A DNA stretch of 64,000 bases from Roseateles sp. (lineage in GTDB: Bacteria; Pseudomonadota; Gammaproteobacteria; Burkholderiales; Burkholderiaceae_C), in assembly GCA_016790285.1 (NCBI GenBank), contig JAEUPJ010000050.1, forward strand, positions 155,895 through 219,894, written 5' to 3'. Under the pieces are notes generated by a model that did no database searches, was not told the origin of the DNA, and saw only the letters and a list, made by a program, of their open reading frames with translations. The translations under genes were made by a program, and so were the position numbers. Below are positions 2,503-23,156 of the stretch, in pieces (the stretch's first letter is position 1; each line of letters begins with the position of its first letter).

Positions 2503-2536
2503 CCAGGCATTTTGCGAGGAAGCGCATCCGCCATAG

Positions 2537-2552
2537 ATGACAAATTCGTAAT
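2537..2552. promoter_or_regulatory. candidate CusR/CopR-box upstream of copR
   Basis: The sequence ATGACAAATTCGTAAT resembles the published CusR box (ATGACAA-NN-TTGTCAT): a perfect left half and a degenerate right half. It is 34 bp upstream of the copR start, inside the divergent intergenic region, so autoregulation and control of the rightward copper genes are both possible. Assigned by eye only. Confidence 0.45.
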
Positions 2553-2704
2553 GTGCGGGACGGCCGGCAGTCTGCGGCTTGTCCTTACAGTTCACTCCAT
2601 CGCGCCGGCTTCCGGCGCCTCACTGCCCCGGAGGACGGCAAGTCCTCGGATGGTCATGTTGACCACGACAGTGTCTTTCCGTTTTTAGACCTTAGACTCC
2701 GGAA

Positions 2705-3124
2705 ATGAGCAAACTCTTGCGCATCGTGCTGACGTGGGTCCTTGCAGTGGCGCTGCCACTGCAGGGCTACGCCGTCCATGCCATGACAGCCTGCGGGCCC
2801 GCTCACAATCAGGGCAAAGCCGCCGCGGCTCAAAGTTCCGCTCAGCATCTCGACAAGGCGGCGGCTGATCACGGTCGTCATGGTCACGACCATGTCAGCT
2901 CTACAGATGGTGCCCATGCCGAGGTTGCCAAATCCGGCACGGCCGGTCATGCGGACAAATGCAGTGCCTGTGCCTCGTGCTGCCATTTGACGGCCATGGC
3001 GTCGACGGCGGTGCACTTCGACGTGATCCCCTCGCGCCCCGTGGGTGTGGCCACGACGCCGACCGCGCATGACCGCGTATTGCTCGGCAGGCTGGACCGC
3101 CCCCCTCGATCCCTGCACGCCTGA
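2705..3124 (+). CDS. small exported Cys/His-rich protein, DUF2946-like
   Basis: 139-aa protein with an N-terminal hydrophobic signal (about residues 5-26), then a His/Ala-rich stretch (HGRHGHDHV) and a Cys cluster CSACASCCH near residues 95-103. These are candidate soft-metal ligands in the periplasm or membrane surface. Short proteins with this layout often sit at the head of copper-resistance operons and several belong to DUF2946; family membership here is judged from layout, not a search. It is the first rightward gene after the copR divergence, ~200 bp away. It has no recognisable enzymatic motif. A metal-buffering or sensing role is inference. Confidence 0.6.
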   Translation: MSKLLRIVLTWVLAVALPLQGYAVHAMTACGPAHNQGKAAAAQSSAQHLDKAAADHGRHGHDHVSSTDGAHAEVAKSGTAGHADKCSACASCCHLTAMASTAVHFDVIPSRPVGVATTPTAHDRVLLGRLDRPPRSLHA

Positions 3125-3239
3125 GCACGGCTTGCCGCTGCATTGGCAGCGTGCGTGCTCGCTTTGAACTTCCCCAGACGATGAAGTCCGCGCGAGCGTG
3201 AATCCTCGTCGCCCCCCGCCGTTCAACAGCAGGATCACC

Positions 3240-3647
3240 ATGACCGAAATTTCTACGCGACAGCGCGTGGCCGTGGCGTGCGCCATGCTGGCCACCGCCC
3301 TGTCGGCCACCGCGCAAGCTCAGCCCCCAAATCCGGCCGCCTCAGCCGTGCAAGCCGCCCCAGGGCAGCGTGGCGACCCGACCGACGCCCGCTCCGACGT
3401 CCCGCTTCTCGTCTACCGCTCGCCGCTCCAGGGCTACCGCCCGTATGCAGACACGGAGCCGGCCTCGTGGGTCGAGACCAACAAAACCGTGGCGACGGTT
3501 GGCGGCTGGCGGGTATATGCCAAGGAAGCTCGCCAACCGGATGCGCCCGACGCTGCCAGCGCGCCAGCGTCCGGTACCAAGTCCGATGCCAAACCGGACG
3601 CAGGCAAGCCGCAGCCAGCAGGCCATGCAGGCCACAAGATGAAATGA
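3240..3647 (+). CDS. small periplasmic protein of the copper locus, unknown function
   Basis: 135 aa from the ATG at 3240, which follows an AGGAT ribosome site; the frame extends further upstream without a better start. A signal peptide (ends near AQAQ), a Pro/Ala-rich linker and a compact middle with LVYRSPLQGYRPY and SWVETNKTVATVGGW are visible. The tail is Lys/Pro/Ala-rich and ends HAGHKMK, with His/Met as possible Cu ligands. It ends 11 bases before the efflux lipoprotein gene. Proteins of this type are commonly found next to TolC-like channels in copper/silver islands; I recognise no defined family. A helper role in periplasmic copper handling is inferred from context. Confidence 0.65.
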   Translation: MTEISTRQRVAVACAMLATALSATAQAQPPNPAASAVQAAPGQRGDPTDARSDVPLLVYRSPLQGYRPYADTEPASWVETNKTVATVGGWRVYAKEARQPDAPDAASAPASGTKSDAKPDAGKPQPAGHAGHKMK

Positions 3648-3658
3648 GGACCCGCCGC

Positions 3659-5056
3659 ATGAGCACAACAAACCCGTCTTACCCCGTCCTGCGACGGCTG
3701 CGAAATGTGGCGCTGGCCGCCTCCCCGCTGCTGCTCGCCGGTTGCGCCACCCTGAGCGCCGATGGCGGCATGCAGCCGGTGCAGTCCGCCGCCCAGCAGC
3801 ACCTCGGCCAAAACGTCGAGGTCGTCAAGACAGCCGCCGACCAGGACCGCGTCGCCACCCGTGTGGCGGAACTCCTGGCTCGGCCACTGAACGCCGACAG
3901 TGCGGTGCAGATTGCGCTGCTGAACAACCGCGGCCTGCAGGCGAGCTTCCAGGAGCTGGGCATCGCCGAGGCCGAACTCGTCCAGGCCAGCCGGCTGCCG
4001 AACCCGGGATTCAGCTTTGCCAAGGTCCGCCAGGGGGATACCCGCGAGATCGATCGCAGCTTTTCTTTCGACCTGGCACACCTGATCGCGCTGCCACTGA
4101 CGCGCCAGCTCGAGGCACGGCGGTTTGCCGCCACGCAGCGTGCCGTGTCGTCGGAGATGCTGTCGCTGGCTGCCCAGACCCGCAAGGCGTTCTACGCCGC
4201 CGTGGCTGCCGAGCAGACCGCCCGCTACATGCGCGACGTCCGCGAAACCGCCGACGCCGGCGCCGAACTCGCCAAGCGCCTCACCCTGGCGGGCAATTGG
4301 AGCAAGCTGCAACAAGCCCGTGAGCATGGCTTCTTCGCGGAGGCCGCGTTGAATTTTGCGCGTGCCGAGCAGAACCGCCTCGGCTCGCGAGAGCACCTCA
4401 TCCGCTTGTTGGGCCTGTGGGGCACGCAGACGCAGTTCACGCTGCCCGAGCGCCTGCCGGACCTGCCGGCAGCGCTGCAGGACCAACCCGACATCGAGAA
4501 CGTCGCGATGGCGCAGCGCCTGGACGTGCAGGCCGCCAAGCTGCAAGCTGAGGCGACCGCCAAGAACCTGGGCCTGACCAAAGTCACGCGCCTGATCAAC
4601 GTACTGGAGTTCGGCTACCAGCGCAACACCTTCAACGACGCTCCTCGCCAAACTGGATACGCAGTCAGCTTCGAGTTGCCGCTATTTGATTGGGGCACGG
4701 CACGCGTCGCCCGTAGTGAGGCGCTCTATATGCGCAGCGTTCAGCGGGCCGCACAGATCGCCATCGAAGCGCGCTCCGAAGTCCGCCAAGCTTATCTTGG
4801 GTATCACAGCAGCTATGACGTCGCGCGCCACTATCGCGACGACATCGTGCCGACGGCAAAAAGGATCTCCGAGGAGAACGTTCTTTTGTACAACGGCATG
4901 TTCATCAGCGTGTTCGAACTGCTGGCCGATGCACGAGCCCAAATCTCGGCCGTTAACGGCGCAATTGAAGCTCAGCGGGATTTCTGGATGGCTAAGGCCG
5001 ACCTCGACATGGCTCTCGTAGGCAAGCCCGTATCCGACAGCACTGCTGTCAACTGA
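3659..5056 (+). CDS. TolC-family outer-membrane efflux lipoprotein
   Basis: 465-aa outer membrane factor. The signal peptide ends in a lipobox (LLLAGC), so the mature protein should be lipid-anchored. Two long helical repeats with the outer-membrane-efflux pattern follow (NNRGLQASFQELGIAEAELV in the first half, VARSEALYMRSVQRAAQIA in the second). Size and lipidation match the CusC/NodT group. No adaptor or RND gene is adjacent; the pump genes cusBA are at 12.9-17.5 kb with their own channel, so the island carries two outer-membrane factors. The ATG at 3659 is preceded by AGGAC. It precedes the multicopper oxidase by 16 bases and is probably co-transcribed. Confidence 0.85.
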   Translation: MSTTNPSYPVLRRLRNVALAASPLLLAGCATLSADGGMQPVQSAAQQHLGQNVEVVKTAADQDRVATRVAELLARPLNADSAVQIALLNNRGLQASFQELGIAEAELVQASRLPNPGFSFAKVRQGDTREIDRSFSFDLAHLIALPLTRQLEARRFAATQRAVSSEMLSLAAQTRKAFYAAVAAEQTARYMRDVRETADAGAELAKRLTLAGNWSKLQQAREHGFFAEAALNFARAEQNRLGSREHLIRLLGLWGTQTQFTLPERLPDLPAALQDQPDIENVAMAQRLDVQAAKLQAEATAKNLGLTKVTRLINVLEFGYQRNTFNDAPRQTGYAVSFELPLFDWGTARVARSEALYMRSVQRAAQIAIEARSEVRQAYLGYHSSYDVARHYRDDIVPTAKRISEENVLLYNGMFISVFELLADARAQISAVNGAIEAQRDFWMAKADLDMALVGKPVSDSTAVN

Positions 5057-5072
5057 ATCAGGAGGATTGACG

Positions 5073-6482
5073 ATGGTTTCTCGACGCGATTTTTTCCGCA
5101 ATGCCGGGGTGGTTACTGCGGCCGTATCAGCAGCCTCCGTGAGCCGCGTGGCCATGGCTGCACTGCCCGAGCCAGTGCTACAGACGACGCCAGACACAGG
5201 TGCCCCGCTGCTGCCTGAGACCGGGCGCCCGTACAACCCTGTCGTGACCCTCAACGGTTGGACCTTACCTTGGCGAATGAACCAGGGTGTCAAGGAGTTT
5301 CATCTGGTGGCCGAGCCTGTTGTGCGCGAGTTAGCCCCTGGGATGAAGGCGCACCTGTGGGGCTACAACGGCCAGTCGCCCGGCCCCACGATTGAGGTGG
5401 TCGAAGGTGACCGCGTGCGAGTGTTCGTCACCAATAAGTTGCCTGAACACACGAGCATCCACTGGCATGGGCAACGCCTGCCGAATGGTATGGATGGAGT
5501 AGCCGGACTGAATCAGAAGTCGATCCAGCCGGGCAAGACGTTCGTCTATGAATTCGTTGCGCGGCGTCCAGGCACCTTCATGTACCACCCCCATGCCGAT
5601 GAAATGACGCAAATGGCGATGGGAATGATGGGCTTCTGGATTACCCATCCGAAGGCCAAGCACCCGCTGATAAGCACTGTTGACCGAGATTTCTGCTTTC
5701 TGCTCAACGCCTTTGACATCGATCCTGGTACGGCCACACCCAAGATCATGACGATGTTGAATTTCAATCTGTGGTGCTGGAACAGTCGAGTATTCCCCGG
5801 CATTGACACGCTCAATGTACGCAAGAACGACAAAGTGCGCATTCGGGTTGGCAACCTCACCATGACAAACCATCCGATACACCTGCATGGACATGAGTTC
5901 CATGTGACAGGTACTGACGGGGGGCCCACACCCATCAGCTCGCGCTGGTATGAGGTAACGACCGATATCGCCGTCGGCCAGATGCGCCAGATCGAGTTCC
6001 TTGCCGATGAGGAAGGCGATTGGGCCTTCCATTGCCACAAGAGCCACCACACGATGAACGCGATGGGGCACGAAGTCCCCACCATGATTGGAGTCGATCA
6101 CCGTAGTGTTTCCAGAAAGATCACCAAACTGGTGCCCGATTACATGGTCATGGGGGAACGGGGTATGGCAGACATGGCAGAAATGGAGATGCCGCTACCC
6201 GACAACACGATCCCCATGATGACCGGCGAAGGTCCGTTCGGCGGCGTCGAGATGGGCGGCATGTTCTCGGTCGTGAAGGTGCGCAAGAACCAGAAGCCGG
6301 GCGACTACAGCAACCCAGGCTGGTACCAGCACCCCAGGGGTGAAGTCGCGTTCGAGTGGACCGGTGCACTGCCTGAGCCGGCGCGGTTCGCGGCCGAGGG
6401 CGGGCAGTCCATGCCGCGCAAGAAGCCATCGCCGCCTGCCGAAGTCACCGTCCGAAAGCCCACGGGTCATTCTGAGCACTGA
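5073..6482 (+). CDS. Tat-exported multicopper oxidase (CopA/CumA-like)
   Basis: 469 aa from the ATG at 5073, seven bases after GGAGG; the frame also allows an upstream TTG. The N-terminus has a twin-arginine signal (SRRDFF). Copper-site motifs are complete: HWHGQ (H130, H132), MYHPHAD, HPIHLHGHEFH from H267, and HCHKSHH from H320. They bind one type-1 copper and the trinuclear cluster. The tail is Met/Gly/Pro-rich (MGERGMADMAEMEMP), a feature of cuprous oxidases. By family it oxidises periplasmic Cu(I) to less toxic Cu(II). At ~470 aa it is shorter than PcoA/CopA (~600 aa). Codon use and base composition look slightly more AT-rich than its neighbours. Confidence 0.88.
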   Translation: MVSRRDFFRNAGVVTAAVSAASVSRVAMAALPEPVLQTTPDTGAPLLPETGRPYNPVVTLNGWTLPWRMNQGVKEFHLVAEPVVRELAPGMKAHLWGYNGQSPGPTIEVVEGDRVRVFVTNKLPEHTSIHWHGQRLPNGMDGVAGLNQKSIQPGKTFVYEFVARRPGTFMYHPHADEMTQMAMGMMGFWITHPKAKHPLISTVDRDFCFLLNAFDIDPGTATPKIMTMLNFNLWCWNSRVFPGIDTLNVRKNDKVRIRVGNLTMTNHPIHLHGHEFHVTGTDGGPTPISSRWYEVTTDIAVGQMRQIEFLADEEGDWAFHCHKSHHTMNAMGHEVPTMIGVDHRSVSRKITKLVPDYMVMGERGMADMAEMEMPLPDNTIPMMTGEGPFGGVEMGGMFSVVKVRKNQKPGDYSNPGWYQHPRGEVAFEWTGALPEPARFAAEGGQSMPRKKPSPPAEVTVRKPTGHSEH

Positions 6483-8063: not shown

Positions 8064-10487
8064 ATGAAGCACCAGCATCACCATCCCGCTGCGGACACCG
8101 GGCCGGGCGCGAGCGGCGTCACCGCTGGCCAGTCCGCCCCGGTCTATACCTGCCCGATGCATCCCGAGGTCCGGCAAGACCAGCCGGGGCGTTGCCCGAC
8201 CTGCGGCATGACGCTCGTGCTCGCCGGGGCTGGCGAGCCATCGACGGCGCAGATGCATCCCGCGCACGGTTCTGAGCCTGCACATCACGGGCATCACGGT
8301 GACCATGTCCGCCATCCGCCCGCCGCGGCAGGCCACGTGCCGGCCGAGCCACCGCCCCACTCGGGGGGCGACGGCACTCAAACCCAGGACGGCGCCACGA
8401 CCTACACCTGCCCGATGCACCCGGAGATCCGGCAGGACCACCCCGGCAACTGCCCCAAGTGCGGCATGACGCTGGAGCCGCTGCTGCCGAGCCTCGAGGA
8501 CGATGGCAACCCGGAACTCCACGACTTCCAGCGGCGTTTCTGGGGCACGTTGCCGCTGACCGTGGTGGTGACGGTGCTCGCGATGCTCGGCCACCGGCTG
8601 CAGTGGTTCGAGATGAGCACCCAGAGCTGGATCGAGCTGGTGCTCACATTGCCCATCGTGCTGTGGGCGGGTTGGCCGTTCTTCCAGCGCGGCTGGCAGT
8701 CCCTGGTCAATCGCAGCCTGAACATGTGGACCCTGATCAGCCTGGGAACCGGCGCAGCGTTCGTCTACAGCGTCGTGGCCACCGTCGTGCCCGAGGTCTT
8801 CCCGCAGTCGTTCCTGGCGATGGGACGGGTGGCGGTGTATTTCGAAGCGGCGGCCGTCATCATCTCCCTGACGCTGCTCGGGCAGCTGCTGGAACTGCGG
8901 GCCAGGTCGCAGACCTCTGGCGCGATCAAGGCCTTGCTCGGCTTGGCGCCCAAGACGGCGCGACGCATCGATGCAAAGGGCAACGAGAGCGACATACCGC
9001 TGTCCCATGTCCACGTGGGTGACCTGCTGCGGGTGCGGCCGGGCGAGAAGGTGCCGGCGGACGGTTTCGTGGTCGAAGGCAGCAGCTCGGTTGACGAGTC
9101 GATGCTGACGGGTGAGCCGATACCCATCGTCAAGAAGGCGGGGGATCGCGTCATCGGCGCGACGCTCAACACGAGCGGCACCCTGGTCATGCGGTCCGAA
9201 CGCGTCGGCGCCTCCACCATGCTGTCGCAGATCGTCCAGATGGTGACCGAGGCGCAGCGATCACGAGCCCCCATGCAACGCATGGCCGACCAGGTGGCCG
9301 GCTACTTCGTCGCGGCGGTGCTGGGCGTGGCCGTGCTGACGCTCTTGGCCTGGGGCATCTGGGGGCCGGAGCCCAGCTGGGTGTACGGCCTGATCAATGC
9401 GGTGTCCGTCCTGATCATCGCCTGCCCCTGTGCGCTGGGATTGGCGACGCCGATGTCCATCATGGTGGCCACGGGACGTGGCGCGGCCAACGGGGTGCTG
9501 TTCCGCGACGCGGCGGCCATCGAGAACCTGCGCAAGGTGGACACGCTCATCATCGACAAGACCGGGACGCTGACCGAAGGCCGTCCGGTCTTCGACAAGG
9601 TGGTGCCCGCTGCGGGCATCGAGGCGGAAGAGGTCTTGCGGCTGGCAGGCAGCCTCGACCAGGGCAGCGAACACCCGCTGGCGGATGCCATCGTGCGGGC
9701 GGCGCGCGACCAGGGGCTGGCGCTCGAGAAGGCAGAAGAATTCGAATCCGGGTCCGGTATCGGCGTGCGGGGCCGGGTTTCGGGCCGCACGCTGGCGCTG
9801 GGCAACACCGTGCTGATGGAGCAGTCGGGCGTCAGCGTCGAGGCGCTGAAAGCGCAGGCCGAATCGCTGCGCAGCCAGGGCGCGAGCGTGATGTACCTTG
9901 CCGCCGACGGCCAGTTGCTGGGCCTGCTGGCCGTTTCCGACCCGGTCAAGGCCAGCACGCCGGAGGCCCTGCAGCAGCTCCATGCCGCCGGCCTGCGCAT
10001 CATCATGGCGACGGGCGACGGCATGACCACCGCGCAGGCGGTCGGCACCCGGCTTGGCATCGACGAAGTCCACGGCGAGGTGAAGCCGGCCGACAAGCTG
10101 GACCTCGTCAACCGGCTGCAGGCCGAGGGCCGGGTGGTTGCGATGGCGGGCGACGGCATCAACGACGCGCCGGCGCTGGCCAAGGCGGATGTCGGGATCG
10201 CCATGGGCACCGGCACCGACGTCGCCATGAACAGCGCCCAGGTGACCCTGGTCAAGGGCGACCTGCGCGGCATCTCCGTGGCGCGTGACCTGTCGGAGGC
10301 GACGGTCGCCAACATGAAGCAGAACCTGATGTTCGCCTTCCTCTACAACGCGCTGGGCATTCCCCTCGCGGCCGGGCTGCTGTATCCGGTGACCGGCTGG
10401 CTGCTGTCGCCGATGATTGCCGCTCTCGCGATGAGCCTGAGCTCCGCGTCGGTGATCGGCAATGCCCTGCGCCTGCGTCGCGGCTGA
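8064..10487 (+). CDS. copA: Cu(I)/Ag(I)-exporting P1B-type ATPase with two N-terminal CPMHP metal-binding domains
   Basis: 807-aa heavy-metal ATPase. Instead of the usual CxxC domains the N-terminus carries two short heavy-metal-binding modules, each with CPMHPE and CGMTL (about residues 28-51 and 114-137), joined by a His-rich linker. The transport site CPC lies at about 454-456 ([11 protein letters not shown]), the phosphorylated Asp at about 498 (DKTGTLTEG), and the hinge reads [16 protein letters not shown]. The actuator motif is LTGEPIP. It would move Cu(I) or Ag(I) from cytoplasm to periplasm. The ATG at 8064 follows AGGGGAG. It is preceded by a CueR-type promoter, so it is probably its own transcription unit. 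Confidence 0.92.
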
Positions 10488-10546
10488 CACCCGATCTCAC
10501 ACCGGATCTGACACCCGACGATCCCATCTACAACGAAGGAGACCCC

Positions 10547-10930
10547 TTGAAGATCACCATGATTCCCACCCTCCTGGCAGGCGCTGCCATGTTGATGATC
10601 GCCGTGCAGGCACGGGCAGAGCTTGTCGAGATCCGCTTCAATGAGCAGGGCCGCTTCGAGCACAGCGCGACGGTGGCGGCCGGCAAGTTCGTCGAGATCT
10701 GCAGCAAGCTGACCAAGGGGCAGGCGCTGCCCTGGACCTTCAAGTCCGACCAGCCGATGCAGTTCAACATTCACTATCACGAGGACAAGAAGGTCGAGTT
10801 CCCGGCGAAGCTGCAAAGCGCGACCTCTGCCGAGGCGCGCCTGGAGGTACCAATCGATCAGCACTACTGCTGGATGTGGGCCAACAAGGGCAGCACGGAC
10901 GCCCAGCTGACGTTCTCGGTGCAGAAGTGA
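10547..10930 (+). CDS. small periplasmic protein with GOLD-like pattern, unknown function
   Basis: 127 aa starting at TTG 10547, chosen because AAGGAG sits seven bases upstream; the ATG at 10559 would be too distant and would shorten the signal peptide. Signal peptide ends at ARA. The mature part reads like a small beta-sandwich: FVEICSKLTKG, then PMQFNIHYHEDKKVEF, then DQHYCWMWANKG. This arrangement, with NIHYH and YCWMW, recalls GOLD/emp24-like domains; that comparison is from pattern only. Two Cys and an HYH motif could bind copper. It follows the ATPase by ~60 bases and may be co-transcribed with it. I do not recognise a named family. Confidence 0.7.
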   Translation: MKITMIPTLLAGAAMLMIAVQARAELVEIRFNEQGRFEHSATVAAGKFVEICSKLTKGQALPWTFKSDQPMQFNIHYHEDKKVEFPAKLQSATSAEARLEVPIDQHYCWMWANKGSTDAQLTFSVQK

Positions 10931-11007
10931 CGCTTGCCTGCCACTCGTTCGCCCGGATCTTGATCTGTAGCAAATCCGGCTGTTCTCGGCCGCGCTAGGC
11001 TACGCCC

Positions 11008-11460
11008 ATGTTCGCCGCAAGACGCATCGTCAAAGCCTGGGGACGCCGGATCATCGGCGGCTTCATTGCGACCTTGCTGCTCAGCCAGCTTGCGCTGGCG
11101 GCGTACGCGTGTCCGAAACTCGGCGCCAGCCACGCGGCCGCGATGCAGGCATCCGGCATGGCGATGAGTGCTGCGGCCGAGATGGCCTCGATGCCGGACT
11201 GCCATGCGATGCCGGGCACGATGGACGAGAAGGCGCCGCAGCTGTGCCGCGCGCATTGCAGCAACGACGGGTCCGCGGCCTCGGTGCCGCATGCTAAGGA
11301 CTTCAAGCCCAGCGCCGTGCAGCTGATCGGGTTGGCCTATGTGGCGGCGCCCGTCCTGATCGTGCCGGAAGCAGCCGAGCCTGGCCGCTTCACGCTCCAG
11401 CCGGACGAGCGATCCGGCTTCCCACCGCGCTACCTCACCCTGCAGGTCCTCCGAAATTGA
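11008..11460 (+). CDS. exported Met/Cys-rich protein at the head of the cus operon, DUF2946-like
   Basis: 150-aa protein with a hydrophobic N-terminal segment (about 16-33, GGFIATLLLSQLALAAYA) followed by CPKLG and a Met/Ala-rich stretch containing MPDCHAMPG and LCRAHCSNDG. Cys, His and Met are spaced as in candidate copper-binding proteins. The tail reads GRFTLQPDERSGFPPRYLTLQ, typical of small proteins placed just before CusC-like genes. The gene precedes the efflux channel by 75 bp. Family assignment to DUF2946-type proteins is tentative. Role in sensing or buffering periplasmic copper is inference. Confidence 0.6.
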   Translation: MFAARRIVKAWGRRIIGGFIATLLLSQLALAAYACPKLGASHAAAMQASGMAMSAAAEMASMPDCHAMPGTMDEKAPQLCRAHCSNDGSAASVPHAKDFKPSAVQLIGLAYVAAPVLIVPEAAEPGRFTLQPDERSGFPPRYLTLQVLRN

Positions 11461-11534
11461 CGCCTTGAGACGCGTCTGCCGCGCCGTTGTCGCGGTAGGC
11501 GGGCTGTTTGCGGCTTTCAGTTTCGAGGACCACC

Positions 11535-12863
11535 ATGAACATCTCTTATCCCGCTGCGATGGCGCGGCGGTGCTGCGGCCAACGGGCCAAACCGTTCCCG
11601 CCTGCGTTCCCGTCCACGTGCCCATCAGCTACCCGTGCGCGGCGAGTCCCGGGCCTGCTGCTGGCCACCTTTCTGGCATGTTTACCGGCCGCATCCCAAG
11701 CTCTCAGCTTCAGTGAGGCGGTCGCATTGGCGCAGGGCCAGAGCCCCGCACTGTCGGCACAGCAGCTGCAGATCGCTGCAGCGGCCTCGGTTCAGGTGTC
11801 AGCCGGCGCTCTGCCTGATCCGAAGCTGTCGGTCGGCGTCGAGAACCTGCCGGTCAGCGGCATGGATCGCTGGAGCCTGACGCGGGACTTCATGACGATG
11901 CAGCGCATTGCGCTGATGCAGGACGTGCCCAACGCGGCCAAGCGAGAGGCGCAGCGGCAGACCGCCCAGGCGCGCACCGAACGCGAACGGGCCTTGCTGG
12001 TGATTCAGCGGCTGCAGCTTCAGCTCGATCTCAGCCTGGCATGGATCGCTGCGCAGTCGGCCGACCAGCGCAAGTCGCTGCTGGATGAATTGCTGGCCGA
12101 AAACCAGCGACTTCAGGAGAGCCTGCCCGCGCGCATCGCCGCCGGCAGCGCCCAAGCGACGGACCTGTTGATGGCACGTCAGGAAGCCCTGGGCCTCAAG
12201 GATCGGCAGGACGAGCTGGCACGAGATCGCCTCAAGGCGCGGTCCGCGCTGCGCCGCTGGCTGGGCGCCCGCGCCGACGAACCGCTCGCGGACCCGCCGC
12301 CAACCCTGCGCATCCCTTTGGAGCAGCTGCGTGCCAATCTCGACCGGCACGCCGAGCTGGCGCTGTACCCGGCGATGCGGCAGATGGCGCAGGCCGAAAT
12401 GAGCGAAGCACAGGCGGAGAACCGCGGTGATTGGGGCTGGGAGGTGGCCTACAGCCGGCGCGGCCGGCAATGGGGTGACATGGTGTCGGTGCAGTTGAGC
12501 TTCGACCTGCCGTGGCAGAAGGAGCGCCGGCAGCAGCCGCAGATCCGGGCCAAGCAGTTGGAGGCGCAGCGTGTCGAGGCGGAGCAGGAAGACGTGGCCC
12601 GTCGCCACCTGCAGGAGTTGGATGACGCCGCTGCAGAGCTGTCCACCTTGGAGCGCCAGATCGAACGGCTGGTGTCCACCGGCATCAGCCTGAGCCGTGA
12701 GCGCGCCTCGCTGGCACTGACCAACTACCAAACCGCCAAGGGTGACCTGAGCAACGTGCTCGGCGCGCGAGCCCAGGTGCTGGAGAGCCGACTGCGGCTG
12801 ATTGACCTGACCGCGCAGCGCGATGTCCTCATCGCCCGCCTGAACAGCCTGACCGCGCCCTGA
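11535..12863 (+). CDS. cusC: CusC-like outer-membrane efflux channel
   Basis: 442-aa TolC-family channel. The signal peptide is unusually far in: a ~35-residue Arg/Pro/Cys-rich leader precedes the hydrophobic core GLLLATFLACLPAASQA, so the true start may be later or the leader real; ATG 11535 is used because GAGGA lies upstream. Coiled-coil repeats are clear (AVALAQGQSPALSAQQLQIA; EAQRQTAQARTERERALLV; YQTAKGDLSNVLGARAQVLE). There is no lipobox Cys at the signal end, unlike the channel at 3659. The gene ends 11 bases before the adaptor, giving the order C-B-A of a metal-efflux RND system. It forms the outer-membrane exit duct. Confidence 0.85.
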   Translation: MNISYPAAMARRCCGQRAKPFPPAFPSTCPSATRARRVPGLLLATFLACLPAASQALSFSEAVALAQGQSPALSAQQLQIAAAASVQVSAGALPDPKLSVGVENLPVSGMDRWSLTRDFMTMQRIALMQDVPNAAKREAQRQTAQARTERERALLVIQRLQLQLDLSLAWIAAQSADQRKSLLDELLAENQRLQESLPARIAAGSAQATDLLMARQEALGLKDRQDELARDRLKARSALRRWLGARADEPLADPPPTLRIPLEQLRANLDRHAELALYPAMRQMAQAEMSEAQAENRGDWGWEVAYSRRGRQWGDMVSVQLSFDLPWQKERRQQPQIRAKQLEAQRVEAEQEDVARRHLQELDDAAAELSTLERQIERLVSTGISLSRERASLALTNYQTAKGDLSNVLGARAQVLESRLRLIDLTAQRDVLIARLNSLTAP

Positions 12864-12874
12864 GGAGCACGACC

Positions 12875-14359
12875 ATGAACACGAAGAAGATCATCGCCGG
12901 GCTCACGCTGCTGGCCGCCGGCATCGCGATCGGCTATGGCGCCTCACAGTGGCGCAGCTCACACTCGACGGGCGATACCCAGGGGCCGGGCGCCTCGGAA
13001 ACCCCTGACCGCAAGGTGCTGTACTGGTACGACCCCATGCAGCCGACACAGAAGTTCGCCAAGCCCGGCAAGTCGCCCTTCATGGACATGCAGTTGCAGC
13101 CCAAGTACGCCGACGAAGGCGGTCAGGCCGACAACGGCGTGACGGTGTCCGGGCAGACCATTCAGTCGCTGGGCCTGCGCACTGCACCTGTCGAGCGCGG
13201 CCGGTTCGCCGCCAGCGTCGATGTGGTGGGCACGGTGCAGCTCAACGACCGCGATGTCAGCATCGTGCAGGCCAGGTCCGGCGGCTTCGTCGAGCGCGTC
13301 TACGCCCGGGCGCCCGGCGACGTCATCGCGGCAGGCGCGCCCCTGGTGGACCTGCTCTTGCCGGAGTGGATCGGCGCGCAACGAGAGTTCCTCGCCGTGC
13401 GCGCCCTGAAAGACGAAACCCTGCTGGCAGCGGCCCGGCAGCGCCTGCAGTTGCTCGGCATGCCGGCGACGGTCATCGACCAGGTCGAGCGCAGCGGGGA
13501 TGTCCAGGGCCGGTACACGGTGACGGCGCCCCAGGGTGGCCTGATCGCCGAACTGATGGTTCGCCAGGGCATGACGGTGTCTGCCGGCATGAGCCTGGCG
13601 CGCATCAACGGACTCTCGACGGTCTGGCTCGAGGCGGCCGTGCCGGAGGCGCAAAGCGGGACCACCCAGGTCGGGCAATCCGCCGAGGTCCGGCTGGCGG
13701 CGTTCGCGGGCGAGACCTGGCGGGCGCGTGTCGTGAGCATCCTGCCCGAAGCCAACAAAGAGTCCCGCACGGTGCGGGTGCGCCTGGAGGTTCCCAATCC
13801 GGGGCAGCGCCTGAAGGCCGGCATGACCGGTCAGGTGAGCCTCCAGGGCCGCGAGCTTGAAGCCCTGCTGGTTCCGAGCGAAGCCGTGATCCGTACCGGG
13901 CGGCGCGCAGTCGTCTATGTCGTCGACGCGCCGGGCAAGTTCCACCCGGTCGAGGTGCAGCTGGGCGCGGAGGTCGACGACAAGCTGGCCATCCTGGGAG
14001 GGCTGACGGCCGGGCAGCAGGTGGTGGCCTCCGCGCAGTTCCTGATCGACTCCGAGGCCAGCCTCAAGGGCATCCTGCCCGCAGCGGCTGCCGCGTCGGC
14101 GGCAGGTGGTGCGGCATCGGCCGCCACGGTGCCGGCGGCGTTCTCGGTGACCGGTGTCATCCAGAACGTCTCGCCGACGGAGATGACTTTGGCGCACGAG
14201 GCTGTGCCTGGCTTGAAGTGGCCGGCGATGACCATGGCCTTCAAGCTGGCGGATCCCAAGCTGGCCCAAGGCCGCAAGCCCGAACAGAAAGTCCGGTTCA
14301 CATTCGAGCAGCGGGGGGACGACTACGTCATCACGCGCATCGAGGAGGTGTCGCGATGA
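12875..14359 (+). CDS. cusB: CusB-like RND adaptor with N-terminal metal-binding and C-terminal CusF domains
   Basis: 494-aa periplasmic adaptor. After a membrane anchor (8-25) comes a heavy-metal module with YWYDPMQP and [12 protein letters not shown] (about 48-76). Barrel-sandwich, alpha-hairpin and beta-barrel domains follow ([39 protein letters not shown]). After an Ala-rich linker the last ~75 residues form a CusF-like domain ([32 protein letters not shown]), including the Trp that CusF uses to cap Cu(I). CusB accepts Cu(I)/Ag(I) from CusF; fusion would tether the chaperone. It overlaps cusA by 4 bases (ATGA), so the two are translationally coupled. Confidence 0.9.
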
Positions 14360-17300
14360 TCGCCCGCCTGATTCGCTGGTCGGTCAAGAGCCGCTTCCTC
14401 GTGCTGCTGGCGACGCTGATGCTGACCGCCTGGGGCATCTGGGCGGTGCGCAGCACGCCCGTCGACGCCTTGCCCGACCTGTCCGACGTCCAGGTCATCA
14501 TCCGCACGACCTACCCGGGGCAGGCGCCGCAGATCGTCGAGAACCAGGTGACCTATCCGCTGGCGACGACGATGCTGTCCGTGCCGGGCGCGAAGACGGT
14601 GCGCGGCTTCTCGTTCTTCGGCGACTCTTTCGTGTACGTGCTGTTCGAAGACGGCACGGACTTGTACTGGGCACGGTCGCGCGTATTGGAATACCTCAAC
14701 CAGGTGCAGGGCCGGCTGCCTGCCACGGCCAAGGCCAGCCTCGGGCCCGATGCGACCGGGGTGGGATGGATCTTCCAGTACGCGCTGGTCGACCGCAGCG
14801 GCAAGAACGACCTGGCACAGCTGCGTGCGCTGCAGGATTGGTTCCTGAAGTTCGAACTGAAGAGCCTGCCCAATGTGGCAGAGGTCGCCTCCGTCGGCGG
14901 CATGGTCAAGCAGTACCAGGTCGTGGTGAACCCGATCAAGCTGGCGGGCTACGGCCTGAACCAGGCGCAGGTCCGCGACGCGGTGATGCAGGCCAACCAG
15001 GAGTCGGGCGGCTCTGTGCTGGAGCTTGCCGGCGCCGAGTACATGGTGCGGGCCAGCGGCTACCTGAAGACGCTGGATGATTTCCGCGCGATCCCGCTGG
15101 TGTCGCGTGGCGGCGTGCCGGTCAGGCTGGGTGACGTCGCGGTCGTACAGCAGGGACCCGAGATGCGCCGCGGCATCGCGGAGCTGGACGGCGAAGGCGA
15201 GGTAGCGGGCGGCGTGGTGATCCTGCGCTCGGGCAAGAACGCCCAGGAGACCATCGCCGCGGTCAAGGCCAAGCTTGCAGAACTGCAGAGCAGCCTGCCC
15301 AAGGGCGTCGAGATCGTCACGACCTACGACCGCAGCGCGCTCATCGAGCGCGCCATTCGCAACCTGACGACCAAGCTGGGCGAGGAATTCCTGGTGGTGG
15401 CGATCGTCTGCGCCATCTTCCTGTGGCATTTGCGCTCGGCGCTGGTCGCCATCATCTCGTTGCCGCTGGGTGTGATGACGGCCTTCCTCGTGATGCGGTA
15501 CCAGGGCATCAACGCCAACATCATGTCGCTGGGCGGCATCGCCATCGCCGTCGGCGCGATGGTGGACGCGGCCGTCGTGATGATCGAGAACGCGCACAAG
15601 AAGCTGGAAGCCTGGCAGCACCAGAACCCTGGGAAAACGCTCCAAGGCGCCGAGCACTGGGAGGTCATCACGCAGGCGGCCGAGGAGGTTGGGCCGGCGC
15701 TGTTCTTCTCGCTGCTCATCATCACCTTGTCCTTCGTGCCCGTGTTCACGCTGGAAGCCCAGGAGGGGCGCCTGTTCGGGCCGCTGGCGTTCACGAAGAC
15801 CTATGCGATGGCGGCGGCGGCGGGCCTGTCGGTCACGCTGATACCGGTGCTGATGGGCTTTTGGATCCGCGGCCGCATCCCCAATGAGCACAAGAACCCG
15901 ATCACGCGGGCGTTGATTGCCGTCTACCGGCCGTGCCTGGAATGGGTGCTCGGGCGTCCGAAGACGACGCTGATCGTCGCTGTGCTGACACTGTTGACGA
16001 CGGCCTGGCCGCTCAGCCAACTGGGCGGAGAGTTTCTGCCGCGGCTGGACGAAGGCGATCTGCTCTACATGCCGTCGGCGCTGCCGGGCCTGTCCGCCCA
16101 GCGGGCCACCGAGCTGCTGCAGCTGAGCAACCGCATGATCAAGACCGTCCCTGAGGTGGAGCGAGTCTTCGGCAAGGCCGGCCGCGCCGAAACCGCGACC
16201 GACCCTGCGCCCCTGGAAATGTTCGAGACGACCGTCAAGCTCAAGCCGCGCGAACAGTGGCGCGCCGGCATGACGCCGGACCGTCTGGTCGAAGAGTTGG
16301 ACAAGGCGGTCAGGATTCCTGGCCTGTCCAACATCTGGATCCCGCCCATCCGCAACCGCATCGACATGCTGGCCACCGGGATCAAGAGTCCCATCGGCGT
16401 GAAGGTGACCGGCAGCGACCTGCGCGTCATCGACCGGATTGCGAGCGAGGTCGAACAGGTGGCCAAGGGCATCCCCGGTGTGACGTCGGCCCTGGCGGAA
16501 CGGCTCACGGGCGGGCGCTACATCGACGTGCGTATCGACCGCGTGGCGGCTGGCCGCTACGGGCTCAACATCGCCGAAATCCAGTCAGTGGTCGCGGGTG
16601 CAGTGGGCGGCGAGAACGTCTCGGAGACTATCGAGGGCCTGGCGCGATTCCCCATCAACATCCGCTACCCCAGGGAGTGGCGGGACTCGCCCGAGCGGCT
16701 GACGCAACTGCCGATCTCCACGCCGATGGGCCAGCAGATCACGCTGGGGACCGTGGCGACCGTCGTCATCACGGACGGTCCGCCGATGCTCAAGAGCGAG
16801 AACGCGCGGCCCTCCGGGTGGGTCTACGTCGACGTGCGTGGCCGGGACCTGGCGTCAGTGGCGAACGAACTGCGGGCCGCCGTTGCCCGGCAGGTGAAGC
16901 TGGAACCGGGTGTCAGCGTCGCCTATTCGGGCCAGTTCGAGTACCTGGAGCGAGCCAACGCCCGGCTCAAGGTCGTCGTGCCGGCCACGCTGCTGATCAT
17001 CTTCGTGCTGCTGTACCTGACCTTCGGCCGATGGGACGAGGCGGCACTGATCATGGCGACCTTGCCGTTCGCGCTGACGGGCGGCATCTGGTTCCTGTAC
17101 CTGCTGGGCTACAACCTCTCCATCGCGACGGGCGTCGGCTTCATCGCGCTGGCGGGCGTGGCGGCCGAGTTCGGCGTCGTCATGCTCATCTACCTCAAGC
17201 ATGCCGTCGCGGACCGGCGCCCCGACGGCGCGGCGCTGACGTTGGCTGAACTGCTGGATGCGATCCGCGAGGGCGCGGTGCTTCGGGTGCGACCCAAGGC

Positions 17301-17523
17301 CATGACGGTGGCGGTGATCCTGGCCGGCCTGGTGCCCATCGTCTGGGGCAGCGGAACAGGTTCGGAGGTGATGAGCCGCATCGCAGCGCCCATGCTGGGC
17401 GGCATGGTGACGGCGCCGCTGCTGTCCCTGTTCGTCATTCCAGCGGCCTACCTGCTGATGCGTCGGCCGCGCAGGAAAGCAGCCATGGCCGGCGCGCCGG
17501 CCGGGCAAGGCCCCGCCGCCTGA
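14356..17523 (+). CDS. cusA: CusA-like heavy-metal RND efflux pump
   Basis: 1055-aa inner-membrane RND transporter, normal length for the HME subgroup. Twelve transmembrane helices with the RND layout are visible: TM1 near 13-33, a large periplasmic loop, TM2-6 ([17 protein letters not shown] and following), a second loop and TM7-12. TM4 keeps the acidic relay in [21 protein letters not shown] Met-rich porter segment ([20 protein letters not shown]) fits Cu(I)/Ag(I) selectivity. It uses the proton gradient to expel metal through CusBC. Start at ATG 14356 inside the cusB stop. A hairpin follows the stop. Confidence 0.93.
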
Positions 17524-18177: not shown

Positions 18178-19944
18178 TCAGCTGGCGGGATCGCCTTCGA
18201 CGTCGATGTGCATCATCAAACCGCCACCGCCTTTCGTTTCCACGTTGTTGTTCGTGGTGTGGTGGGAGATGTGGCAATGGATCATCCACTTGCCCGGCTT
18301 GAGCGCCGTCCAGATCACGTCGTAGCGCTGGCCGGGACCGACGTTGACGGTGTCGGCCTTGTAGCGGGCGGCAGGCGGCAGTGTTTCACCGTCGCGAGCC
18401 ACGACGACGAACGGCCCGCCGTGGATGTGCATCGGATGGATGAAGCCGCTGTTCGAGCCGATGAAGCGCACTTTGAGCGTCTCGCCGACCTTCATCTTGA
18501 TCGTGTCGGTCTCGGGAAAGGCGCGCCCGTTGATGGTGAAGTAGTTCGGCATGCCACCTTCCATCGGCATCGCCGGGTAGGTCAGCCCTTCGCGCTTGAG
18601 CCATTCCTGCAGCATCAGCGTGTACTCGTGGTCCGCGGGGATCTCGTCCTTGGGGGTTGCCGGGTCGATGATGAGCGCGCCATACAGACCCAGCGCCTGC
18701 TGCCGGTCCACGTGGTCGTGCGAGTGATAGAAGTAGGTGCCGGACTGGACGGCGGTGAACTCGTAGCGGTAGAGCTCGCCGTTCCCGATCGGCATTTGCG
18801 TGACGCGCGCCGGGCCGTCCATGACATTGGGAAGCACCAGTCCGTGCCAGTGCACCGTGGTGGACTCGGGCAAGCGGTTGGTCACGTTGATGCGTACCCG
18901 GTCACCCTGCTTGAAGCGCAGTCGCGGGCCCGGGACCTGGCCGTTGAAGGCGAAGGCCTCCATCGAGACGTTCGGCAGGATCTGCCATCGGATGACGGAG
19001 GTCTCCAGGTCGAAGACCTTGACGCCGTCCTCGATGCGAGGCGTGAGTTCCTGGTCACCGCGCTTGTCGAGACCGTAGGTTGCCGTCACGAAGCGCGGCG
19101 GCACAGCGGCCATGTCGCGCATCGCTTCGCCCGGCGTGTCGCGGTCCATGATCATGCCCGGCGGCATGATGGCGCCGCCCACGTCGCGCGCACTGAGGCT
19201 CATGTTGACGAAGTTCGCTGGAGCCGCCATGCCTGTGAGGAGCAGCAACACGGAGATCCCGCCCACCGCCGCGAGTTGTGGGCGGGTCAAGTCGGTGGAC
19301 ATGGCGCCATCGTGCCCGCCATGCTTGCCGCCGCCGTGCTTCATGCCTGCGTGCCCGCCAGCAGGCTTGCTTTTATCTGCGCCGTCGTGCGGCTTGTCAG
19401 CCTCGGCCATGGCCATGGCGGGCGCGCCCGAGTGACCGTGATCGGCCGAGTGCGGCGCAGGAGCGGCGCTCGCAGCGTCGTGAGCCGCGTGGGCGGGCAT
19501 GGCGCCCTGGTGCCCATGGGCAGAGTGGTCCTCGTGCTCGGCCATCTTGCCCGCACTCTCGCCGGCCTTCTCGCCCACCTCAAACCGGCTGCCAGGCTTG
19601 CGCTCGGTCATCAGGCCGTGTTTCATCTTCTGGGCGACCATCCAGACATTGACCGGGTAGGCCAAGGCAAAGCCGGCCATCACGCCCAGGGACATAACGC
19701 CCCAGAACAGCAGCTCAGTCGGCTCCATCGCGCGCATGTCGCGGCCCATCATCAGCAGGCTCATGACTGGCGCCATCCCGGCCATCATGAAATTCATGCT
19801 GATGAACTCAGGGACGAAGCTTTTGCGGACGTTCTCCCAGTAGGTGCCGCCCATCATGCTTTTCATGAAAAGCGACTGGAAGATGAAAAGGCCGAATGCA
19901 AAGCCGGCGACATACTCGACGATCAGATCGACCCACATCGGCAA
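18178..19944 (-). CDS. DUF4396 C-terminal half fused to a multicopper oxidase (downstream of an in-frame TGA)
   Basis: From the ATG at 19944 this reads 588 aa; the homologous frame continues upstream to the TGA at 20002-20004. The N-terminal part is the last third of a DUF4396 membrane domain (VDLIVEYVAGFAFGLFIFQS, then GVMAGFALAYPVNVWM). A ~100-residue His/Ala/Met-rich linker, one more hydrophobic segment (LAAVGGISVLLLLTGM) and a multicopper oxidase follow. Copper motifs are complete: HWHGLVLP, FYHSHDHVD, HPMHIHGG and HCHISHHT. It would be a membrane-tethered cuprous oxidase with a metal-rich arm. The first DUF4396 half is the entry at 20002. Expression needs readthrough, recoding or re-initiation. 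Confidence 0.8.
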   Translation of the reverse strand: MPMWVDLIVEYVAGFAFGLFIFQSLFMKSMMGGTYWENVRKSFVPEFISMNFMMAGMAPVMSLLMMGRDMRAMEPTELLFWGVMSLGVMAGFALAYPVNVWMVAQKMKHGLMTERKPGSRFEVGEKAGESAGKMAEHEDHSAHGHQGAMPAHAAHDAASAAPAPHSADHGHSGAPAMAMAEADKPHDGADKSKPAGGHAGMKHGGGKHGGHDGAMSTDLTRPQLAAVGGISVLLLLTGMAAPANFVNMSLSARDVGGAIMPPGMIMDRDTPGEAMRDMAAVPPRFVTATYGLDKRGDQELTPRIEDGVKVFDLETSVIRWQILPNVSMEAFAFNGQVPGPRLRFKQGDRVRINVTNRLPESTTVHWHGLVLPNVMDGPARVTQMPIGNGELYRYEFTAVQSGTYFYHSHDHVDRQQALGLYGALIIDPATPKDEIPADHEYTLMLQEWLKREGLTYPAMPMEGGMPNYFTINGRAFPETDTIKMKVGETLKVRFIGSNSGFIHPMHIHGGPFVVVARDGETLPPAARYKADTVNVGPGQRYDVIWTALKPGKWMIHCHISHHTTNNNVETKGGGGLMMHIDVEGDPAS

Positions 19945-20001
19945 GCCAAGGGCGGCGGTGATGACGGCGGCGAGGATGATGCCGGTGGCGTCTCCGGCGA
20001 C

Positions 20002-20262
20002 TCAGTGGATCGTCGATCCGACACCCTGTCTCCATAGAGGGGCCACGAAGGTTTCGTGCGTGCCAGGCCGGGGCTCCTTGTCCGACATCACGTACAGCAA
20101 CAGGCCGAAGGGACCCATGTACAGCGTGACGAGGATGAAGCCCCACCGCATGACGGTCGGCTCGGGGTTGTTGCGGAACTGGTCGTACGCCACGAAGAGC
20201 GTGGACGCACCGGCCAGAAGAAACCAGACAACGAGGAAGTAGTCGATCGGCTGAATAAGCAT
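20002..20262 (-). CDS. N-terminal half of the DUF4396-multicopper oxidase, ending at an in-frame TGA
   Basis: 86 aa from ATG 20262 (the frame also opens at TTG 20343). Two transmembrane segments are visible: PIDYFLVVWFLLAGASTLFV and WGFILVTLYMGPFGLLLYVM. It ends QGVGSTIH-stop. Translation resumes in the same frame with no shift as VAGDATGIILAAVIT and runs into the oxidase at 18178. In DUF4396 proteins as I know them, the His here is followed by a conserved Cys (HC...GD/GC). The TGA would be codon 87 of a 694-residue product. It could be a nonsense mutation, a sequence error or selenocysteine. Confidence 0.7.
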   Translation of the reverse strand: MLIQPIDYFLVVWFLLAGASTLFVAYDQFRNNPEPTVMRWGFILVTLYMGPFGLLLYVMSDKEPRPGTHETFVAPLWRQGVGSTIH

Positions 20263-20497: not shown

Positions 20498-20619
20498 CTA
20501 ATGCCACGGGTGCAACGACTCGGGTAACCGCTTGTCATGGGCGATCTCGTTCGGGCCCCGGCGCACCAAGCGCGAAAGGAAGCTGAACCCATGGGTCAGC
20601 ACGTTGGTCAAGCGGGCAC
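20498..20619 (-). pseudogene. C-terminal fragment of a gene cut by the IS21-type element
   Basis: On the minus strand an open frame runs from the element boundary to a TAG at 20498-20500 and encodes about 40 residues, including THGFSFLSRLVRRGPNEIA and DKRLPESLHPW. The Arg-rich tail after a hydrophobic stretch resembles the C-terminus of a membrane protein, but I cannot name it. No start codon or ribosome site is present before the IS border. The sequence on the other side of the element does not obviously supply the missing 5' part. Confidence 0.4.
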
Positions 20620-20649
20620 TGTTGGCGCCGATCTAAATTTGACCCACCC
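20620..20649 (+). repeat. left terminal inverted repeat of the IS21-type element
   Basis: Begins TGTTGGCGCC and ends AAATTTGACCCACCC; matches the right terminus at 27 of 30 positions, with the mismatches clustered at positions 13-15. Confidence 0.9.
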
Positions 20650-20728
20650 TGCCGATTGAACTCTGACCCAGGGCTTGGGGCCAGCATCGCGTGATGCCGG
20701 CTGTGGACAACTGTAGTGGTGAGCTTCC

Positions 20729-21520
20729 TCAGGCCGCTTCGTCGCCCTTGTTGCGCCGCTCCTGCTCCCTCGCCTTGATGCGCTTGCGCGTTGCCGCCGT
20801 GGCCTGCGTGACGCGGTAGCTCTCGTTGCCGGTCTCCACGATGTGGCAATGGTGCGTGAGCCGGTCCAGCAGCGCCGTGGTCATCTTGGCGTCTCCGAAC
20901 ACGGTGCTCCATTCGGCGAAGTCCAGGTTGGTCGTGATGACGACGCTGGTGTGCTCGTAGAGCTTGGACATCAGATGGAACAGCAAGGCGCCGCCGCTCT
21001 GGCTGAACGGCAGGTAGCCCAGTTCATCGAGGATCACCAGGTCCAGGCGCAGCAGGCTGGCCGCGATGCGCCCGGCCTTGCCCTCGGCCTTCTCCCGCTC
21101 CAGCGCGTTGACCAGGTCCACCGTGCTGTAGAAGCGGACCCGCTTGCCGTGCGTGCCGATGCCCGTCACGCCGAGGGCCGTGGCCAGGTGGGTCTTGCCC
21201 GTGCCCGGTCCGCCCACCAGCACCACGTTGTGCGCCGCGGCCGTGAACTCGCAGGTGGCCAGTTGCGTGACCAGCTTGCGGTCCACGGGCGAGACCTCGA
21301 AGTCGAAGCTGGCCAGGTCGCGGTGCACCGGGAAGCGGGCCGCGCTCATCTGGTGCTGCACCGAGCGCGTGGCGCGGTCGCTGGCCTCGGCCTGCAGCAT
21401 GTGCTCCAGCAGCCAACGCGAGCGCTCGACTTCAGCGTTGCGCTGCTCGCCGAGTTCGGCCCAGGTGGCGGCCATGCCGTGCAGGCGCAGGGCCTTCAGC
21501 TCTGCAATGACATCAGCCAT
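20729..21520 (-). CDS. istB: IstB-type transposition ATPase
   Basis: 263-aa AAA+ helper of IS21 transposition. Walker A GGPGTGKT is at about 103-110, Walker B reads [11 protein letters not shown], and the sensor region has [13 protein letters not shown]. An N-terminal helical domain ([20 protein letters not shown]) is typical of IstB. IstB forms ATP-dependent filaments or decamers that select target DNA and recruit the transposase. Its start overlaps the istA stop by 8 bp, which implies translational coupling. The tail is Lys/Arg/Glu-rich. No damage is visible, so it may be active. Confidence 0.93.
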
Positions 21521-23033
21521 GGTCGACCTCCTGCTCGGCCAGCCGGCGCAGACGGTCGTAGCGGCCCGGGTCGGCCTGCGGTGGCGTGGTCATGCTCAGC
21601 GGTGTGGCAACGTTGGGCGGTCGCTCGGGCGCCGTGAGCCGCGCCAGCACGTTGGCCACGTGTTCCGGGCTGATGCGCCCGCCAGGCCCTGCGCGTTCCA
21701 GCGCCAACTCGGCCGCCACCAGCACCTCGTCCAGCCCCGCCGTGCTGCTCAGCGCCAGCACTTGCGCCATCAGCCGGTCGCCGCCCGCGTGGCGAAGCAA
21801 GGCCTGGCGCAGCCTGGCCAGCGGCTCGGGCAGGTCCACGAACGGGGCGCCGTTGCGCAGCGCGCCGGGCTTGCGTTGGACCAGCGGCACATAGTGCTGC
21901 CAGTCGTAGGCCGTGCGGCCCTTGCCGCTGAGCCGCACATGCTCAGCCACCACACGCTCATCGGCCACGATCACCACGCGCTGCGGGTACAGCCGCGTGC
22001 TGACCGTCTGCCGGGCCAACTCGCAGGGCACCGAGTAGCGGTTGCGCGCCACCGTCACCAGGCAGGTGCTGCTCACGCGCGCAACGTCCTGCACATAACC
22101 GTCGAAGTCAACGGGCTTTGGCATCAGGTGGCTGCGCTCCAGCTCCAGCATCTCTGCCACGCTGAAGGCCTTGTGCTCGGGGTGGCGCAACTCGGCCCAC
22201 AGCGCCTTGCAGCGCTCGCCCAGCCAGGCGTTGAGTTCCTCCAGGCTGCCGAAGCGCTGCTCGCGCGCCGCCAGCCAGATGCGACGCCGGCTGTCCTGCA
22301 CGTTCTTCTCGACGACACCCTTCTCCCAGCCGCTGGCGACGTTGCAGAAGTCCGGGTCGAAGAGGTAGTGCGCGCACAGCGCGGCGAAGCGGCTGTTGAC
22401 GTCCCGACTCTTGCCGCGACCGACGCGGTCCACGGCGGTCTTCATGTTGTCGTAGATGCCCCGGCGCGCCACGCCGCCCAGGGCCGCGAAGCTGCGCGTG
22501 TGGGCGTCGAACAGCATCTCGTGGCCTTGGCTGGGGTACGCCACCAGCCAGAAGGCCCGGCTGGCGCACAGCTTCATGTGCGCCGCCTGCAGCCGCTGGT
22601 ACACGCCGCCGATGACCAGCGGCTCCTCGCTCCAGTCGAACTGGAAGGCCTCGCCGAGTTCGAAGCTCAGCGGCACGTAGGCATCGCCCACCCCAACGCC
22701 GCCCTGGGCCGCGCGCCAGGCGCGGATGTAGTCGGTCAGCCGGCTGTAGCCGCCGTCGTACCCAGCGGCCTTCAACTGCTCCAGCAGCGCCTTGGCACTG
22801 CGCCGCTCCTTCTTGGGCCGACGCGCATCGGCCCGCAGCGATTGCTCCAGTTGCTCGACGTAGGGCGCCAGCTTGGTCGGCACCGTCGGCCGGCGGTACT
22901 GCGGCGGTTCGGCCTTGCCCAGCCTGAGGTACTTGCGAACCGTGTTCCTCGCCAGGCTCGTAGCCTTGGCAATCTCCCGCACCGACTTCTTCTCGCGGTG
23001 GTGCATCCGCAAGACCTTGCCAATCATCACCAT
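21513..23033 (-). CDS. istA: IstA-type DDE transposase
   Basis: 506 aa from ATG 23033 (preceded by GGAG); the longer frame to 23102 reads into the terminal repeat. The N-terminal helix-turn-helix reads [21 protein letters not shown]. The retroviral-integrase-like catalytic core contains QFDWSEEP (first Asp) and [11 protein letters not shown] (second), followed by the acidic segment of the third catalytic residue near [12 protein letters not shown]. The C-terminal part ([14 protein letters not shown]) is the DNA-binding beta domain of IstA. No stops or frameshifts are visible. It cuts and joins the element ends with IstB. Confidence 0.93.
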
Positions 23034-23126
23034 GGTGATCACTCCTCGAACCCCGCCCAGCTGTGGATATCTCGGGCAGGGTAGGTTGAACACCTGGGTC
23101 AAATTTGGGTCGGCAGGGCCCTCACG

Positions 23127-23156
23127 GGTGGGTCAAATTTCAGTCGGCGCCAACAG
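23127..23156 (-). repeat. right terminal inverted repeat of the IS21-type element
   Basis: Reverse complement begins TGTTGGCGCC and shares AAATTTGACCCACCC with the left end. An inner second copy (AAATTTGACCCAGG on the minus strand) lies around 23,092-23,105. Confidence 0.9.

Follow-up and report, generated by a model that had tools for sequence, protein, structure and literature searches.

A DUF4396-multicopper oxidase fusion gene on the minus strand of our window (the whole 64,000-nucleotide stretch of Roseateles DNA that was analysed) carries one in-frame TGA, at 20002-20004 within the gene's span of 18178-20262. In our opinion this TGA is most probably an ordinary opal nonsense codon, and the gene a nonsense allele of recent origin on a mobile copper-resistance island. 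Of the options left open in an earlier note on this DNA, nonsense is the best supported; both premises of the selenocysteine (Sec) option, a conserved Cys and sel genes in the genome, turned out to be right, but that option is left with no recognisable SECIS element, and a sequence error has become unlikely. The weights that we give to the different readings are judgements and not computed values. A single disabling change in the gene and the intactness of its close relatives would fit nonsense. Against it speak the position of the stop on a conserved Cys, the otherwise intact frame, the traces of past purifying selection and the apparent ability of both genomes with this TGA to make Sec.

From ATG 20262 the frame runs through 86 codons to GSTIH, meets the TGA at 20004-20002 and goes on in translation as VAGDATGI... 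until it reaches its stop at 18180-18178, 694 codons with the TGA included. As had been described earlier, there is no frame shift after the TGA and a complete oxidase follows it; the TGA is the sole stop within the frame, and the remainder is intact. When a profile search is allowed to read through stops, DUF4396 (PF14342) is matched over profile positions 2-141, with '1 TGA' inside, at 135.7 bits against a gathering score of 27, which places the protein in that family. The 86-codon piece 5' of the TGA (20005-20262, minus strand), the sole product expected under ordinary translation, has no convincing profile match when taken alone. The 607-codon piece 3' of it (18181-20001, minus strand) contains the rest of DUF4396, matched from profile position 13 (E 3.9e-33), a His/Met-rich linker and the copper-oxidase domains, with all three Cu-oxidase models (PF07732, PF07731 and PF00394) over cut-off. 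These domains and the His-rich copper motifs that can be read in the translation (HWHG, HSH, HPMHIHG and HCHISHH) identify it as a multicopper oxidase.

Every homologous locus that was examined and extends over the column has a Cys codon in place of the TGA. We built a DUF4396 column profile from 41 loci picked for their His-Cys motif and ran it on 69 loci, a set that omits weak Pfam matches, plasmid loci, the second copy of the TGA gene and matches without a stored locus. The column holds Cys in 64 of them, is not reached in four, and is the TGA in the window. Since the 41 seed loci have Cys by choice, the 28 others are the better measure: here 23 have Cys, four do not reach the column and one is the window, so that all 23 non-window loci that reach it have Cys. 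The His-Cys of DUF4396, which the earlier note had placed at this point, is thus borne out (64 of 64 reaching loci, 23 of 23 outside the seed). The closest relative found, a sister gene in the same genus (L131), has TGC in this column, and among eight further full or partial fusions in the same alignment the codon is TGC in seven and TGT in one. L131 and WP_162590419.1, the latter from plasmid 3 of Variovorax sp. RA8 in copper-resistance surroundings, share with the window gene both the domain order (PF14342 followed by PF07732/PF07731) and the motif GSTIH-x-VAGDATGI, but both encode Cys, as TGC, at the position of the window's TGA.

Such a Cys/TGA pair invites the reading that the host's SelB and tRNA-Sec decode the UGA with the help of a SECIS missed by existing models, Sec replacing a presumed metal-binding Cys of the DUF4396 oxidase. 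We consider this quite unlikely, although its argument from the Cys column is a real one. The window TGA differs by a single base from the Cys codon of L131, and in L131 a stop can arise through 174 different single-base changes, only two of which affect Cys codons; hence a stop on a conserved Cys is uncommon. However, the gene was singled out precisely because its TGA lies on a Cys, and that weakens the coincidence as an argument for Sec. It is nonetheless the best argument that Sec has left.

The capacity of the host also speaks for Sec. The genes that the earlier note made a test of this option, selA, selB, selC and selD, are all four present in the window genome: selA (559 bits), selB (445 bits) and tRNA-Sec (76.6 bits) are clustered on contig 96, and selD (422 bits) lies on the same contig as the window, contig 75. 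Contig 96 also has, a few kilobases ahead of selA, a gene with an in-frame UGA (L125:2702-2704 within 2042-5188), which from there on encodes formate dehydrogenase-N subunit alpha (TIGR01553, 1204 bits). Roseateles saccharophilus DSM 654, the other genome with the TGA, likewise has homology to the selA locus, a tRNA-Sec and a formate dehydrogenase SECIS near selABC (L129:12203-12261), and the 60 bases from the formate dehydrogenase UGA are identical in the two genomes. Both genomes therefore appear able to make Sec. The trait is common in the family: tRNA-Sec matches reach 64 bits or more in 79 of the 299 genomes drawn from it (a hand count of the listing; the next best match has 52.1 bits), and the larger tally of 144 genomes over the tRNA-Sec gathering score is taken to include other long-arm tRNAs. 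The portion of PMC1794560 drawn on here describes selA-selB-selC operons of Betaproteobacteria with a neighbouring fdhA, a description that the formate dehydrogenase near selABC in the window genome fits. The same portion names no selenoprotein other than formate dehydrogenase for the Betaproteobacteria sequenced by that time, and this counts against a second one here.

Codon comparison with L131 tells that the gene was well kept until recent times, if not to this day. Before the TGA the ratio dN/dS is 0.05; for the remainder of DUF4396 it is 0.03, for the loose linker 0.28 and for the oxidase 0.05. Amino-acid changes on the window branch, as compared with those on the L131 branch, number 3 vs 2 before the TGA, 2 vs 4 in the rest of DUF4396, 13 vs 15 in the linker and 7 vs 9 in the oxidase (another 1, 0, 27 and 15, respectively, could be placed on neither branch), so they are not clearly commoner on the window branch. 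By these measures past purifying selection was strong on either side of the TGA, and the low dN/dS together with the balance between branches implies that the gene stayed whole through almost its entire separate history. It was so functional until recently, or is functional still. This pattern fits a recent nonsense change; it would fit a UGA that is still read as well, and in that respect it favours Sec.

The same selection on the oxidase part, which is intact, could be claimed for a gene that is split and nevertheless works: the 86-residue piece would be made, and translation would restart at TTG 19944-19942 or ATG 19938-19936, yielding an oxidase that lacks its first 106-108 residues, is still anchored and works in part. 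The frame opened by TTG 19944 is indeed 588 codons long. Re-initiation had been proposed before at an ATG at 19944, but the codon there reads TTG, and behind the TGA the frame has no ATG before the one at 19938-19936. In our opinion a working split gene is unlikely. By eye there is no clear Shine-Dalgarno sequence before either restart codon, the restart would lose the conserved His-Cys motif together with the start of DUF4396, and none of 14 Cys relatives has a stop at this place (12 are listed as stop-free inside and two are annotated as one gene). A frame that stays intact after the TGA may also be invoked for simple readthrough, in which a near-cognate tRNA or an opal suppressor tRNA would yield enough of the full-length protein. 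The leakiest base after a TGA is C; here it is G, and we hold sufficient readthrough to be very unlikely.

The search for a SECIS speaks against Sec. Rfam SECIS_3 is found at the formate dehydrogenase UGA of the window genome with 84.6 bits (E 6.6e-21) and at that of DSM 654 with 85.6 bits. At the candidate TGA no Rfam SECIS is found up to E 10, the one match being unrelated and of 14.8 bits. The constraints on bacterial SECIS elements set out in the part of PMC13188914 used here (a loop of 3-9 nt with G in its first two positions, an upper stem of 4-16 bp, a UGA-to-loop distance of 16-37 nt and a minimum free energy of at most -7.5 kcal/mol) were applied in a version that we coded ourselves. 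Both formate dehydrogenases pass it (-14.0), and the candidate has no qualifying hairpin. Because the coded test is lax, being passed also by 6 of 14 Cys homologues and by 623 of 2000 synonymous recodings, failing it is more telling than passing it. The candidate's 40 bases fold at -9.7 kcal/mol, while 11 Cys homologues fold at -8.7 to -18.0 kcal/mol, ten of them more strongly. The earlier note had drawn a GCCGG/CCGGC hairpin behind the TGA and at the same time doubted that it could be a SECIS. The doubt was justified by the Rfam search and by the published constraints alike; the host's own formate dehydrogenase UGA does have such an element. The stem itself can be drawn (19981-19998, minus strand; bases 4-8 after the TGA pair with bases 17-21, leaving a loop at 9-16, which does not satisfy the SECIS constraints), but its inner pairs reach a probability of only 0.58 in the 40-base ensemble, and we read it as a by-product of G+C-rich codons.

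It should be said that the models are imperfect. Some bacterial SECIS elements fall outside the model according to the same part of PMC13188914, and bSECISearch missed at least 40 known genes (13.0%) in its test genomes according to the excerpted text of PMC12013277. The latter text also accepts three new selenoprotein families that have no TGA homologues elsewhere, and the former lists Sec in other metal-handling proteins, for example the SO_0444 family Cu/Zn efflux transporter. These statements count in favour of Sec. The part of that selenoproteome review (PMC13188914) at hand mentions neither 'PF14342' nor 'multicopper', and its sole match to 'DUF4' is DUF466. Our literature search on DUF4396 and selenocysteine found no report of a Sec-containing DUF4396 protein; DUF4396 was found once, in a partial text that names it as flanking a metal cluster.

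Comparison among relatives leads in the same direction as the SECIS search. The read-through profile searches match in 19 of 299 genomes of the family, 32 of 399 of the order and 31 of 369 of the class, draws that overlap in part, and among matches over cut-off in these draws only the window's own has an internal stop; in the order search three matches below cut-off have stops as well. Within the genus 6 of 20 genomes match and two have the TGA, one of the two with its match on the contig and at the coordinates expected for the DSM 654 record and hence taken as DSM 654. A pattern scan of GTDB species genomes that demands the TGA, and covers the [VIL]AGD[AG]xGI subfamily only, gave eight hits. 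With the DUF4396 profile one of these, DSM 654 (L100), scores 139.0 bits and is the gene in question, and the other seven score at most 1.9 bits. Thus neither the read-through searches nor the scan of that subfamily found a TGA homologue outside the one island, and the only other TGA that they found in a Sec user is the second copy of the same island. Ten other genomes of the family draw are strong carriers of the gene, and three of them (G238, G282 and G091) reach 64 bits or more for tRNA-Sec. The column codon in these three Sec-capable relatives is TGT, TGC and TGT, respectively, that is, they use Cys.

Sec was consequently left unsupported by every approach that was tried: Rfam, the published constraints, folding in comparison with Cys homologues, the TGA-specific scan and the read-through profile searches. 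We favour nonsense over Sec because there is no recognisable SECIS, because no TGA homologue was found outside the one island, and because three relatives able to make Sec have Cys. The conserved Cys column and the sel genes are necessary for Sec, but they are not sufficient. The window gene resembles a bacterial selenoprotein such as the host's formate dehydrogenase in having an in-frame TGA at its homologues' Cys and a host with selABCD; it differs in all three of the points just named.

The surroundings of the gene are those of a mobile island. Positions 1-20619 of the window are shared with DSM 654 with three mismatches, and the island extends leftwards beyond the window by at least 19.9 kb, over which two more are seen, giving five mismatches in 40.5 kb (window 1-20619 together with G000:C75:136000-155894, L128, against G1051:C16, loci L126, L127 and L134). 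In the selABC region the identity between the two genomes is only 82-88%. With at least 40 kb near-identical against this background, recent transfer is the natural reading, and judging from the identities the island has probably been shared recently between two clearly different Roseateles genomes; strictly, its near-identity means either a very recent transfer or a shared contaminant. The shared island carries copper and heavy-metal genes, among them a copper or heavy-metal export set at 8064-17523 that consists of a P-type ATPase with HMBD domains, an outer membrane factor, CusB with a fused CusF domain and an RND pump.

An error of sequence or assembly at 20002-20004, one of the options left open earlier, would need just the one base by which the codon differs from the sister gene's Cys codon. 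We set it aside as extremely unlikely, since the same TGA is present in the assembly of DSM 654, a second and clearly different genome, in which different DNA adjoins the island. That the two island copies go back to one source through contamination is formally conceivable.

Identity with DSM 654 ends at 20619, exactly where an IS21-family element (20619-23156, minus strand; istA and istB, 31-nt ends of 90% complementarity) starts in the window. Beyond the equivalent point DSM 654 carries further genes that the window genome is missing there, by eye including a second multicopper oxidase (L100:4637-6400). No obvious target duplication is visible by eye at the IS21 element. Since the element sits at the end of the island, in the place where the following DSM 654 genes are missing, the arrangement suggests an insertion with an adjacent deletion.

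If the TGA is an ordinary stop, it would have arisen at the conserved Cys codon after the lineage split from that of L131, and translation begun at ATG 20262 would presumably end there, with 86 residues made. The full-length membrane-anchored oxidase would then not be made, or only in traces through leaky decoding or weak restart. The loss may be tolerable given the copper export encoded on the island (the P-type ATPase and the CusABC-type pump) and a second, stop-free DUF4396 gene, and the allele would have spread with its island between the two Roseateles genomes. Nonsense alleles and young pseudogenes do occur in mobile metal-resistance islands. The window gene is like these in having one stop in an otherwise intact frame, on a recently shared island with an adjoining IS element, and is unlike them in that its stop happens to lie on a conserved Cys.

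Were Sec nevertheless true, a DUF4396 protein containing it would be joined to a copper oxidase and carried from species to species on a copper island, and Betaproteobacteria would gain a new selenoprotein family, linked to metals and with an unusual SECIS. As matters stand, the gene clearly illustrates that the SECIS and comparative tests can be failed even where TGA replaces a conserved Cys codon and the genome is Sec-capable, and it should be useful as a negative case for programs that call selenoproteins by Cys/TGA pairs.

Two minor observations came out of the searches. One of the eight hits of the TGA pattern, in a Proteobacteria MAG (L103:1985-4390, minus strand), is followed by about 800 stop-free codons; it has no likeness to DUF4396 despite this long open frame, and we rejected it as a chance hit. 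A plasmid search for close relatives gave three partial matches and no close copy. Hits on Sinorhizobium meliloti plasmids (H24-H32) consist of two pieces that cover 48-52% of the query, with no listed gene in a gene table that is itself incomplete. These are perhaps decayed copies of the DUF4396-oxidase gene, and it seems that the family decays elsewhere too.
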